Program-made: the position numbers and the translations under genes
Shown: positions 11,326-15,803 of the stretch, one piece after another
Layout of the letters: the number at the start of each line of letters is the position of its first letter
Numbering within the stretch: position 1 is the stretch's first letter
The notes under the pieces: model-generated
The model's input: the letters and a program-made list of their open reading frames with translations, nothing else
Told to the model about the DNA's origin: nothing
The model's database searches: none
Source of the DNA: Neorhizobium vignae
GTDB taxonomy: Bacteria; Pseudomonadota; Alphaproteobacteria; Rhizobiales; Rhizobiaceae
Direction of reading: 5' to 3'
Assembly (NCBI RefSeq): GCF_000732195.1
Contig: NZ_JNNU01000006.1
Span: 248,001-312,000 of the forward strand
Length of the DNA stretch: 64,000 nucleotides

Positions 11326-12231
11326 ATGTCTATTCTCGTCAACAAAGACACCAAGGTCATCGTCCAGGGCCTGACCGGGAAGACCGGCACCTTTCACACG
11401 GAGCAGGCGCTTGCCTATTACGGCACCAAGATGGTGGGCGGCGTTCATCCGAAAAAGGGCGGCGAATCGTGGTCGTCCGGCGTCGATGGCACGTCGCTGC
11501 CGATCTTCACCTCGGTTGCCGAAGCCAGGGAACGGACCGGCGCCGATGCGACCGTGATCTACGTCCCGCCGGCAGGCGCAGCGGACGCGATCATCGAGGC
11601 GATCGAAGCCGAAGTCCCGTTCATCACCTGCATCACCGAAGGCATCCCGGTCATGGACATGGTGCGCGTCAAGGCCCGCCTCGACCGTTCCAAGTCGCGA
11701 CTGCTCGGCCCCAACTGCCCGGGCATCCTGACGCCGGAAGAATGCAAGATCGGCATCATGCCGGGCTCGATCTTCCGCAAGGGTTCGGTCGGCATCGTGT
11801 CCCGTTCAGGCACGCTGACCTATGAAGCCGTGTTCCAGACCTCGAACGAAGGCCTCGGCCAGACGACCGCTGTCGGCATCGGCGGCGACCCGGTCAAGGG
11901 CACCGAGTTCATCGACGTCCTGGAAATGTTCCTCGCCGACGACGCAACGACCTCGATCATCATGATCGGCGAAATCGGCGGCTCGGCTGAAGAAGACGCG
12001 GCACAGTTCCTCAAGGACGAAGCCAAGAAGGGCCGCAGCAAGCCGATGGCCGGCTTCATCGCGGGCCGTACCGCACCGAAGGGCCGCACCATGGGTCACG
12101 CCGGCGCAGTGGTTTCCGGCGGCAAGGGCGATGCGGAATCGAAGATCGCGGCCATGGAATCGGCAGGCATCAAGGTGTCGCCTTCTCCGGCCCGTCTCGG
12201 CAAGACCTTGGTTGAAGTCCTGAAGGGCTGA
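11326..12231 (+). CDS. sucD: succinyl-CoA synthetase alpha subunit
   Basis: The 301-residue subunit carries the CoA site and the transient phosphohistidine. Visible are [20 protein letters not shown] with the CoA-binding loop, [46 protein letters not shown], and the phosphohistidine in [19 protein letters not shown] near residue 250. The ATG at 11326 gives the conserved [12 protein letters not shown] start; the reading frame opens earlier inside sucC but that part is not real. It is followed by a 236-base structured gap before sucA. Confidence 0.97.
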
Positions 12232-12248
12232 CGCCACATAAAGGACAC

Positions 12249-12459
12249 TCGCCGCCGATAGATAGGTGGCGATTGATCCGACAAGCTTCGGACAGGCGAA
12301 GCGCCACATTGTTTCGCCTGTCCATGTTTTGCGTCTCCCAACTTCTCGAGACGCGTAACCGCCAAGCGCGGTTCGGTACCAAGACGAAGACCAAGAAAAT
12401 GCGGAGGCCGGAGATATTTTCCGGTTCCGATTACGTCAGGAGGCGGGCGCGGCGCCCGC
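12249..12459 (+). promoter_or_regulatory. structured leader between sucD and sucA (candidate cis-regulatory RNA)
   Basis: The 236-base gap holds several clear stems. H1: TCGCCGCC (12249-12256) with GGTGGCGA (12265-12272). H2: GGACAGGCGAA (12290-12300) with TTCGCCTGTCC (12313-12323). An alternative to H2: GCTTCG (12285-12290) with CGAAGC (12297-12302), which uses the left arm of H2. H3: GCGTCTC (12331-12337) with GAGACGC (12348-12354). H4: CCGGA (12408-12412) with TCCGG (12420-12424). H5: GCGGGCG (12443-12449) with CGCCCGC (12453-12459). The mutually exclusive pairings and the position directly before sucA suggest attenuation or translation control; this is inference. Confidence 0.5.
12290..12330 (+). 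terminator. terminator-like hairpin upstream of sucA
   Basis: An 11-bp perfect stem (12290-12300 with 12313-12323, 12-base loop) is followed by ATGTTTT. It could end mdh-sucCD transcripts or act as an attenuator for sucAB. The short, interrupted U-run makes strong intrinsic termination uncertain. Confidence 0.5.
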
Positions 12460-12470
12460 AGATAACCATG
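12438..12470 (+). promoter_or_regulatory. sucA ribosome binding site bridged by a hairpin
   Basis: A full AGGAGG (12438-12443) lies 24 bases before the sucA ATG (12468), too far for normal use. A perfect 7-bp stem with a CGG loop (12443-12459) fills that space. Folded, it leaves about 8 bases between the Shine-Dalgarno and the ATG, an ideal spacing. Confidence 0.5.
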
Positions 12471-15464
12471 GCACGGCAAGAAGCCAACGAGCAGTTCCTC
12501 ATCACCTCTTTCCTCGACGGACAGAACGCAGCCTATATCGAGCAGCTTCATGCTCGTTACGAGGATGACCCGACATCCGTCGCGCCGGAATGGCAGGCCT
12601 TCTTCAAGGCGCTGGCCGACAATCCGGACGATGTGAAAGCGGCGGCGAAGGGTGCCTCCTGGCAGCGCAAGAACTGGCCGATCACGGCCAATGGCGAGCT
12701 GGTATCGGCGCTCGACGGCAACTGGCCGATCGTCGAAAAGGCGATCGAAACCAAGGTCAAGGCAAAGGCCGAAGCTGCCGCCGTTGCGACCGGCAAGCCG
12801 GTCAACGAAACCGACGTGCTGCAGGCGACACGCGATAGCGTCCGCGCCATCATGATGATCCGCGCCTATCGCATGCGCGGCCACCTGCACGCGAAGCTCG
12901 ATCCGCTCGGTATTGCCAGCGCGGTCGAGGACTATAACGAGCTTTCGCCGACGGCTTACGGCTTCACGGAAGCCGATTACGACCGCAAGATCTTCATCGA
13001 CAACGTGCTCGGCCTCGAATACGCGACTCTCCGTGAGATGATCGAGATCCTTGAGCGCACCTATTGCTCGACGCTCGGCGTCGAATTCATGCATATCTCC
13101 AATCCGGAAGAGAAGTCCTGGATCCAGGAGCGCATCGAGGGCCCCGGCAAGGGCGTCGAATTCACCGCCAACGGCAAGAAGGCGATCCTTCAGAAGCTGG
13201 TGGAAGCGGAAGGTTACGAACAGTTCCTCGACGTCCGCTTCAAGGGGACCAAGCGTTTCGGCCTCGACGGCGGCGAATCGCTGATCCCGGCGCTCGAACA
13301 GATCATCAAGCGCGGCGGCCAGGACGGCCTGGAAGAAGTCATCGTCGGCATGGCCCATCGCGGCCGCCTGAACGTTCTCACTAACGTCATGGGCAAGCCG
13401 CACCGCGCAGTGTTCCACGAGTTCAAGGGCGGTTCGTTCAAGCCGGACGAAGTCGAAGGCTCGGGCGACGTGAAGTACCATCTCGGTGCTTCTTCTGACC
13501 GCGAGTTCGACGGCAACACCGTGCACCTGTCGCTCACGGCCAACCCTTCGCATCTTGAAATCGTCAACCCGGTCGTCATGGGCAAGGCGCGCGCCAAGCA
13601 GGATATGCGTGCCAAGGTCTGGGAAGGCGACGTCATTCCGCTCAAGGAGCGTTCCAAGGTTCTGCCGCTGCTGTTGCACGGCGATGCGGCCTTTGCCGGC
13701 CAAGGCGTCGTGGCTGAAATCCTCGGCCTTTCGGGTCTGCGCGGTCATCGCGTCGCCGGCACGATGCACGTCATCATCAACAACCAGATCGGCTTCACCA
13801 CCAATCCGGCCTTCTCGCGTTCGTCGCCCTATCCGTCCGACGTCGCCAAGATGATCGAGGCCCCGATCTTCCACGTCAACGGCGACGACCCGGAAGCGGT
13901 CGTCTACGCCGCCAAGATTGCGACCGAATACCGGATGAAGTTCCACAAGCCGGTGGTCGTCGACATGTTCTGCTACCGTCGCTTCGGTCATAACGAAGGC
14001 GACGAGCCGGCGTTCACGCAGCCGAAGATGTACAAGGTCATCCGCGCCCACAAGACGGTCGCGCAGATCTATGCCGACCGCCTGATCGCCGAAGGTCTCG
14101 TCACCGACGGCGAGTTCGAGAAGATGAAGGCCGACTGGCGCGCCAATCTCGAAACCGAGTTCGAGGCCGGTCAGAGCTACAAGCCGAACAAGGCCGACTG
14201 GCTGGACGGCCAGTGGTCGGGCCTGCGTTCGGCCGACAATGCCGACGAGCAGCGCCGTGGCAAGACCGCGATGCCGATGAAGGAACTGCGGGAGATCGGC
14301 CGCAAGCTGTCGACAATTCCGGAAGGCTTCAATGCGCACCGCACCATCAAGCGGTTCATGGAGAACCGCGCCCAGATGGTCGAGACCGGCGAAGGCATCG
14401 ACTGGGCCATGGCGGAAGCCCTGGCATTCGGCTCGCTTGCCGTCGAAGGCACCAAGATCCGCCTGTCCGGCCAGGATTGCGAACGCGGCACGTTCAGCCA
14501 ACGTCATTCGGTTCTCTACGATCAGGACACCGAAGAGCGCTACATTCCGCTCGCCAACCTGTCGCCGACCCAGGCCCGGTACGAAGTCATCAACTCGATG
14601 CTTTCGGAAGAGGCGGTCCTCGGCTTCGAATACGGGTATTCGCTTGCCCGCCCGAATGCACTGACCCTCTGGGAAGCCCAGTTCGGCGACTTCGCCAACG
14701 GTGCACAGGTCGTGTTCGACCAGTTCATCTCGTCTGGCGAACGCAAGTGGCTGCGCATGTCCGGTCTCGTCTGCCTGCTGCCGCACGGTTATGAAGGCCA
14801 GGGTCCGGAACACTCCTCGGCACGCCTCGAGCGCTGGCTGCAGATGTGCGCCGAAGACAACATGCAGGTCGCCAACGTCACGACGCCGGCCAACTACTTC
14901 CATATCCTGCGTCGCCAGACCAAGCGCGACTTCCGCAAGCCGCTCATCCTGATGACGCCGAAGTCCCTGCTGCGCCACAAACGGGCTACCTCGACGCTTG
15001 CCGAACTGGCCGGCGAATCCTCCTTCCATCGCCTCCTCTGGGACGATGCGGAGGTCATCAAGGACGGCCCGATCAAGCTGCAGAAGGATGCCAAGATCCG
15101 TCGCGTCGTGCTGTGCACCGGCAAGGTCTATTACGACCTTCTCGAAGAGCGCGAAAAGCGCGGCATTGACGACATCTACCTGCTGCGCATCGAACAGCTT
15201 TATCCGTTCCCGGCCAAGGCGCTGATCAACGAGCTTTCCCGCTTCCGCAACGCGGAAATGGTCTGGTGCCAGGAAGAGCCGAAGAACATGGGTGCCTGGT
15301 CGTTCATCGACCCGTATCTGGAATGGGTTCTGGCGCATATCGATGCCAAGTATCAGCGCGTTCGTTACACGGGCCGGCCGGCAGCGGCCTCGCCCGCAAC
15401 GGGCCAGATGTCGAAGCATCTCGCACAGCTCGAAGCCTTCCTCGAAGACGCGCTGGGCGGCTGA
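12468..15464 (+). CDS. sucA: 2-oxoglutarate dehydrogenase E1 component
   Basis: The 998-residue thiamine-diphosphate enzyme decarboxylates 2-oxoglutarate and transfers the succinyl group to the SucB lipoyl arm. The start is the ATG at 12468 (MARQEANEQFLITSFLDGQN), which gives the conserved E1o N-terminus; the longer reading frame from 12273 runs through the structured leader and is rejected. Landmarks are the GMAHRGRLNVLTNVMGKP segment near residue 300, TANPSHLEIVNPVVMGK, the ThDP region HGDAAFAGQGVVAE and NNQIGFTTNP, FGHNEGDEPAFTQP near residue 510, and LPHGYEGQGPEHSSARLERW near residue 765. A YciI-like gene separates it from sucB. Confidence 0.97.
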   Translation: MARQEANEQFLITSFLDGQNAAYIEQLHARYEDDPTSVAPEWQAFFKALADNPDDVKAAAKGASWQRKNWPITANGELVSALDGNWPIVEKAIETKVKAKAEAAAVATGKPVNETDVLQATRDSVRAIMMIRAYRMRGHLHAKLDPLGIASAVEDYNELSPTAYGFTEADYDRKIFIDNVLGLEYATLREMIEILERTYCSTLGVEFMHISNPEEKSWIQERIEGPGKGVEFTANGKKAILQKLVEAEGYEQFLDVRFKGTKRFGLDGGESLIPALEQIIKRGGQDGLEEVIVGMAHRGRLNVLTNVMGKPHRAVFHEFKGGSFKPDEVEGSGDVKYHLGASSDREFDGNTVHLSLTANPSHLEIVNPVVMGKARAKQDMRAKVWEGDVIPLKERSKVLPLLLHGDAAFAGQGVVAEILGLSGLRGHRVAGTMHVIINNQIGFTTNPAFSRSSPYPSDVAKMIEAPIFHVNGDDPEAVVYAAKIATEYRMKFHKPVVVDMFCYRRFGHNEGDEPAFTQPKMYKVIRAHKTVAQIYADRLIAEGLVTDGEFEKMKADWRANLETEFEAGQSYKPNKADWLDGQWSGLRSADNADEQRRGKTAMPMKELREIGRKLSTIPEGFNAHRTIKRFMENRAQMVETGEGIDWAMAEALAFGSLAVEGTKIRLSGQDCERGTFSQRHSVLYDQDTEERYIPLANLSPTQARYEVINSMLSEEAVLGFEYGYSLARPNALTLWEAQFGDFANGAQVVFDQFISSGERKWLRMSGLVCLLPHGYEGQGPEHSSARLERWLQMCAEDNMQVANVTTPANYFHILRRQTKRDFRKPLILMTPKSLLRHKRATSTLAELAGESSFHRLLWDDAEVIKDGPIKLQKDAKIRRVVLCTGKVYYDLLEEREKRGIDDIYLLRIEQLYPFPAKALINELSRFRNAEMVWCQEEPKNMGAWSFIDPYLEWVLAHIDAKYQRVRYTGRPAAASPATGQMSKHLAQLEAFLEDALGG

Positions 15465-15476
15465 GGGGACGGGCGG

Positions 15477-15803
15477 ATGGCCTATTTTCACCTGAAGCTC
15501 GTTCCGCCTCGGCCGAGCTTTCCGCATGACGCAACGCCGGAGGAAATGACGGCGATGCAGGCCCACGCCGCCTATTGGCATGGCCATGCGGAAACCGGCG
15601 TCGCGATCGCCGTCGGTCCCGTCTTTTCGGAAGGCGGGGCTTTTGGCATCGCGGTAGTGGAAGCTGCGGATGCGGCGGCCGCCCAGGCGCTCGGCGACAA
15701 CGATCCGGTGATCAAGGCGGCTCTAGGCTTCCGCTTCGAAACCTCTCCCATGCCATCCATCATTCTTCGGACGTCTGCGGCAGATGCCGCCGCCGCCGTC
15801 TAA
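15477..15803 (+). CDS. YciI-like (YCII domain) protein between sucA and sucB
   Basis: The 108-residue protein begins MAYFHLKLVPPRPSFPHDAT, has a central HAAYWHGHAETGVAIAVGPV with the conserved histidine and glycine pattern of YCII-related domains, and a DNDPVIKAALGFRFE segment where the usual DP(F/Y) motif stands. It starts 12 bases after sucA and ends 30 bases before sucB, so it must share their mRNA unless there is an internal promoter. Why a YciI-like protein is coded between two subunits of one complex is not known; a link to 2-oxoglutarate dehydrogenase chemistry is possible but unproven. Confidence 0.8.
   Translation: MAYFHLKLVPPRPSFPHDATPEEMTAMQAHAAYWHGHAETGVAIAVGPVFSEGGAFGIAVVEAADAAAAQALGDNDPVIKAALGFRFETSPMPSIILRTSAADAAAAV

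Follow-up and report, generated by a model that had tools for sequence, protein, structure and literature searches.

The sucA leader of Neorhizobium vignae probably ends in a split ribosome-binding site, a reading drawn from sequence comparison in which a short hairpin, H5, would bridge the distance between a remote Shine–Dalgarno (SD) sequence and the start codon. The nearest named relatives likewise assign the host to Neorhizobium. In the window (the whole 64,000-nucleotide stretch analysed; all features given here lie on the + strand), the upstream gene sucD, encoding succinyl-CoA ligase alpha, occupies 11329..12231, its first codon being a putative start taken from an S. meliloti-like reading of 300 residues whose translation was used as the query. 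The gene for 2-oxoglutarate dehydrogenase E1, sucA, occupies 12468..15464, and the homologous start is annotated in S. meliloti. The gap between the sucD stop codon at 12231 and the sucA ATG at 12468 measures 236 nt. The only strong SD in front of sucA is a perfect AGGAGG at 12438..12443, and its GGAG lies 25 nt from the ATG in the linear sequence, beyond the usual distance, with no usable SD nearer to the start. Directly adjoining it is H5 (12443..12459; GCGGGCG-CGG-CGCCCGC), in which arms at 12443-12449 and 12453-12459 form seven G-C pairs around the CGG loop at 12450-12452, with a predicted stability of -12.8 kcal/mol here and a mean of -10.7 kcal/mol across relatives. Between H5 and the start codon is a spacer of 8 nt (12460..12467), so that the spacing from SD to ATG is 8 nt with H5 folded versus 25 nt unfolded. 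The earlier note had listed H5 among the hairpins of the leader, but its splitting of the ribosome-binding site had gone unnoticed.

The same geometry recurs in relatives. The GGAG columns are conserved in 100, 100, 98 and 100% (within rounding) of 109 divergent sequences. Across 170 distinct sequences, the linear distance from SD to ATG ranges from 23 to 33 nt and the hairpin from 14 to 21 nt, and the spacing that remains once H5 is removed amounts to 8 or 9 nt in 140 of them and to 7-12 nt in all, a narrower range than the 5-13 nt that our detector allowed. Hairpin length correlates with linear distance (r 0.70), a value that is partly arithmetic, as the second quantity contains the first. 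If the reading holds, natural variation is rich enough to reveal the rules of the arrangement, with the arm sequence free and the folded spacing fixed. The letters of the H5 loop and its length also vary among relatives, a variability that makes a conserved binding site for a ligand or protein in the loop less likely. On the 5′ side, AGGAGRCGG is conserved beyond what pairing alone requires. Runs of short repeats (for example ACTCCCTACTCCC or CACTATTCACC) were seen just before the sucA SD in seven of the more distant family members (L217, L226, L228, L233, L234, L241 and L243).

Conservation of the layout was scored with a fixed detector that required an SD core, a stem of 5 bp or more beginning no farther than 4 nt from it, a loop of 3-8 nt and 5-13 nt to the ATG. 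The detector was written after most of the sequences had been inspected, and only 20 loci collected later were unseen. The loci comprised 150 with both sucD and sucA and 80 more fetched by place; 206 of them formed the GTDB-Rhizobiaceae set, L223 (which has an ordinary SD) having been left out beforehand and 23 loci of other families being counted apart. The start of one locus (L230) was moved by one codon. The detector passed 200 of the 206 family loci, corresponding to 155 of 161 distinct sequences. By eye, the six misses reflect a stem mismatch (L072-L074), a variant SD (L235 and L245) and a long loop (L239). Among the 20 unseen loci, which are further divergent family members mostly from genus labels unsampled before, 15 pass; two of the others (L288 and L289) lack the layout and carry an ordinary SD, and one (L293) shows neither. 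L223 likewise carries an ordinary SD instead of the layout. If it is included among the misses, 215 of 227 family loci have the layout; many of these loci are closely related or are duplicate records. By a hand count of the tables, the family loci span about 70 of 109 genus labels.

Several controls place the background of the detector near 1%. Dinucleotide shuffles, 20 per distinct family sequence, passed in 28 of 3,220 cases, and 47 of 4,178 ATGs of any kind passed in 141 kb of S. meliloti. At the sucD starts of the same loci, none of 128 distinct sequences passed and 77 carried an ordinary SD, whereas at sucA just 5 of the 161 distinct family sequences have an SD core within the usual 4-13 nt. 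Among 113 annotated starts in the 141 kb of S. meliloti, counted after removal of one whose letters do not form a start codon, the single pass was sucA itself, and 55 carried an ordinary SD. With a stricter version of the scan, sucA was the sole match among ATG-started open reading frames of at least 80 residues in the whole window, and the S. meliloti stretches yielded sucA together with two ATGs that lack a start annotation. The layout is not general to gene starts.

We then examined whether the H5 arms change together. In an alignment of 109 sequences less than 88% identical to one another, made without reference to structure, 83.8% of H5 cells are paired, compared with 72.2 ± 0.9% when the letters of the 3′ arm are shuffled (0/500 shuffles as high) and 29.8-43.4% when the partners are slid. 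The covariation score is 0.331 versus 0.172 in shuffles, and 91 cells are doubly changed versus 36. Two of the five measures were not clearly above the shuffled level in this alignment: how many pairs show a double change at all (6 versus 4.4; 48/500) and how many pair types occur (16 versus 13.7; 31/500). On a tree of 205 sequences, built from the coding parts of sucD and sucA, H5 underwent 16 independent compensatory double changes, whereas 300 null simulations averaged 4.9 and never exceeded 11, and 1,298 of 1,432 cells pair, against a null mean of 871 and a maximum of 1,182. Arms found in the same position include CGGGCG/CGCCCG, CGGACG/CGTCCG, CGGAGC/GCTCCG and CGAAGC/GCTTCG, and the low-GC relatives L287 and L292 retain the hairpin by means of A-T pairs. 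The H5 arms thus change yet stay complementary. These observations bear on whether H5 acts as a DNA palindrome, for example an operator or a terminator, that came to lie between SD and ATG by chance. A near-perfect inverted repeat of seven G-C pairs would suit such an element. However, its arms and its length (14-21 nt) are free whereas its position relative to SD and ATG is kept, no T tract follows it, and it is complementarity alone that covaries; we consider a DNA palindrome barely credible.

The remainder of the leader is structured as well. The gap folds to -101 kcal/mol, compared with -75.7 ± 4.8 kcal/mol for 200 shuffles (z -5.30), none of which was as good. In a second alignment, of 25 Neorhizobium-type leaders, the centroid structure was scored: 86.6% of its cells are paired versus 82.4% in shuffles (0/500) and 36-46% in slid controls, and 24 pairs are doubly changed versus 14.0 (0/500). 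Together with the 109-sequence alignment and the tree, these figures bear out the structured leader proposed in the earlier note and show it to be a covarying RNA, and all of the stems that the note had described, H1 to H5 and an alternative to H2, were located where it had placed them. Within the 25 leaders, the two helices of H1 (12249-12272, 8 bp; 12243..12279 with its outer extension) have 92.0 and 95.2% of cells paired, with one and three pairs doubly changed; among the leaders collected, H1 is limited to the Neorhizobium type. H3 (12331..12354, 7 bp) is 77.6% paired, with both sides changed in six of seven pairs, and H4 (12408-12424, extending to about 12402..12429), immediately 5′ of the SD, is 77.5% paired, with both sides changed in 4 of 12 pairs. 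An extra hairpin at 12357..12373, absent from the original list and found by the fold and the 25-leader alignment, is 94.5% paired with no doubly changed pair. Over the family, the SD has an H4-like hairpin in front of it in 130 of 178 leaders, as against 117 of 890 shuffles.

The long hairpin behind sucD, H2 (12290..12323), had been described as an 11-bp terminator-like stem. The long stem is present, with 14 pairs including G-U pairs rather than 11 bp; 82.9% of its cells are paired in the 25 leaders, and 8 of the 14 pairs are doubly changed. The terminator character is doubtful: the ATGTTTT behind the stem is a weak T tract, with five T in 10 nt (ATGTTTTGCG), and a terminator scan returned one site, not beyond chance on that scan given 1.0 ± 1.0 in shuffles. 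Upstream stems of at least 10 bp occur in 97 of 180 family leaders versus 10 of 540 shuffles, and TTTT lies no more than 10 nt behind the strongest upstream hairpin in just seven of the 180, a figure that also weighs against control of sucA by attenuation. The long hairpin behind sucD mostly lacks TTTT and is therefore read as an element that marks a 3′ end or confers stability, and not as a regular terminator. A long G+C-rich stem is typical of intrinsic terminators and of intercistronic hairpins that stabilize mRNA. H2 shares with both a G+C-rich stem right behind the preceding gene, with the T tract mostly missing.

A stem of 6 bp at 12285..12302 overlaps the left arm of H2, and the earlier note had proposed from this overlap that the two are mutually exclusive hairpins of a riboswitch or attenuator, through which a metabolite or termination would control sucA. 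The alternative stem is present here and, among 13 close relatives, reaches at least 5 bp in 8. Its support in the 25 nearest leaders is divided: paired cells (75.8 versus 70.4%; 3/500) and the covariation score (0.230 versus 0.173; 14/500) exceed those of shuffles, whereas doubly changed pairs stand at the shuffled level (3 versus 2.6; 263/500). Its right arm is in any case kept by H2. Across the family a comparable alternative is rarer than in upstream-shuffled leaders (37/157 versus 223/785), which argues against mutually exclusive hairpins. We saw no sign of a metabolite switch: the H5 loop letters vary, and the upstream part does not mask the SD in any systematic way. The absence of an Rfam match counts against the same reading. 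At the gathering score, the whole window matched only a tRNA elsewhere; the segment 12150-12550 gave no match at E values up to 10, and 20 relatives matched no family. No Rfam family covers the leader, in agreement with the note, which names no such motif for Rhizobiales. A switch built on these exclusive stems is, in our assessment, very unlikely. The sucA motif of Burkholderiales is a candidate cis-regulatory RNA. The sucA-II motif (RF01758; Pseudomonadales) and the sucC motif (RF01759; gamma-Proteobacteria) appear in the table of Weinberg 2010. All three resemble the present leader as candidate cis-regulatory RNAs that precede genes of this pathway; they belong to other lineages, and no Rfam family matches here.

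Ribosome access, which had been named as a second option, is the likeliest level of action. Whole-leader folding, which covered 77 of 181 distinct leaders, gave H5 a mean probability of 0.84 in native leaders versus 0.71 when the upstream part was shuffled (p 1e-5), whereas the unpaired probability of the SD did not differ (0.52 versus 0.49, p 0.16). In the window itself, the corresponding values are 0.98 versus 0.67 for H5 and 0.62 versus 0.36 for the unpaired SD. With H5 made more probable and SD accessibility unchanged, the upstream part thus aids H5 and leaves the SD, on average, no less accessible. The unchanged accessibility also bears on whether H5 is itself regulated, being stabilized or melted by a protein, a small RNA or temperature such that translation of sucA would switch with the SD-AUG distance, or chiefly acts as a brake on 30S binding. 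A split site is an obvious handle for control, the hairpin is stable and abuts the SD, and its AGGAGRCGG side is more conserved than pairing needs; a very stable H5 in this position could, as the predicted energies suggest, also hinder the ribosome. Yet the variable letters and length of the loop leave it without a fixed recognition loop, the SD is as accessible as in upstream-shuffled leaders, and a brake on the 30S subunit would leave the 7-12 nt post-folding spacing unexplained. We regard regulation through H5 as unlikely, though less so than the switch or the palindrome.

Under the preferred reading, a bridged ribosome-binding site, the SD would be too distant from the ATG in the linear message, and H5 would fold out to leave about 8 nt, such that a 30S subunit bound at the SD would meet the AUG in its P site. 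The helix formed by the SD and anti-SD may stack on the directly adjoining H5 stem, and H5 would be needed for, or promote, translation of sucA. H1 to H4 are self-contained and, on average, raise the predicted chance of H5 forming. For H2, the probable role is to mark or protect the 3′ end of the transcript portion that covers mdh and sucCD; it may set the balance between sucCD and sucAB.

The closest known arrangement is in phage T4. According to passages of the review PMC3014915, which cites Nivinskas 1999 and Malys & Nivinskas 2009 for the split sites of T4, structure cuts the distance from SD to AUG from 22 to 5 nt in gene 38 and from 27 to 11 nt in gene 25, and mutations that destabilize the structure reduce initiation. 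The T4 genes share with sucA a distant SD, an intervening hairpin, a usable spacing after folding (from 25 to 8 nt at sucA) and an intercistronic position. The two cases differ in that sucA is a bacterial chromosomal gene of the tricarboxylic acid (TCA) cycle whose layout spans about 70 GTDB genus labels with differing arms, whereas the T4 layout is confined to close T-even phages; reporter and probing data back the T4 sites, whereas the sucA layout is known through comparison of sequences. A full-text literature search, conducted mostly outside subscription papers, found no description of the sucA element; PMC8632094 mentions neither sucA nor the rhizobial names queried, and the passages retrieved from PMC4448311, PMC10710512 and PMC2937029 are unrelated. 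Our best reading is that a split ribosome-binding site, otherwise described for two T4 genes, is here conserved at a bacterial housekeeping gene. If so, one core metabolic gene has retained such a site across the members of a bacterial family, and start-site finders that score the linear SD distance would misjudge genes of this kind. How 2-oxoglutarate dehydrogenase is set has consequences for the flow of carbon, both in bacteroids and in free-living cells. The bridged site would offer a concrete handle on how rhizobia set this enzyme.

Outside Rhizobiaceae, the detector passed 6 of the 23 loci that represent other families of the order (L169, L170, L174, L177, L185 and L187), a set in which the start of L186 is doubtful, compared with 20 of 2,300 shuffles. 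In a sample of the class, 5 of 27 usable loci passed (L249, L264, L267, L273 and L274), after 2 of 29 without a nearby ATG had been dropped and with several starts tried for some of the 27. The detector failed at sucA of the named out-groups Methylobacterium bullatum and Ruegeria TM1040. By eye, L174, L248, L259, L275 and L276 show near misses or have a second hairpin in place. The true spread outside Rhizobiaceae may exceed the detector count. Nearly every family locus has the layout, and outside the family a minority above the chance level does, a distribution that does not distinguish common descent from repeated origin. More tentatively, and with doubt outweighing confidence, the bridged site may be ancient and specific to sucA in Alphaproteobacteria, maintained by selection through the replacement of its sequence, and may serve as a control point for 2-oxoglutarate dehydrogenase through the SD-AUG distance. 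In that event, melting or capping H5 would alter this distance and hence the flow through the TCA cycle.

Further copies were sought in genomes. A BLAST search with the 236 nt against its own genome returned itself and 19 short matches with E values of 0.37 or worse, and a dispersed repeat was rejected. A covariance model of H5 found sucA in the same genome with E 2.9e-5, the next match having E 1.5, with 150 of 3,177 first-look candidates scored. In 101 genomes of the order, with stricter filters and 58 candidates per genome, it gave three matches with E ≤ 0.01; one of them, in genome G423, lies by eye inside a coding stretch and was taken as false. The model missed genome G131 although its leader (L233) has the hairpin, so the search is weak on absence. 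A promoter scan of 11800-12700 found none of the promoter types that it covers. Upstream, the frame of sucA stays open as far as a TTG at 12273, and automatic gene calling could read this stretch as an N-terminal extension. A coding extension was rejected, as the frames of several relatives end near the start (999-1,000 residues), and ATG 12468 was kept. Downstream, an open reading frame of 108 amino acids lies between sucA and sucB (window 15477-15803) and by eye resembles a YCII-related protein.
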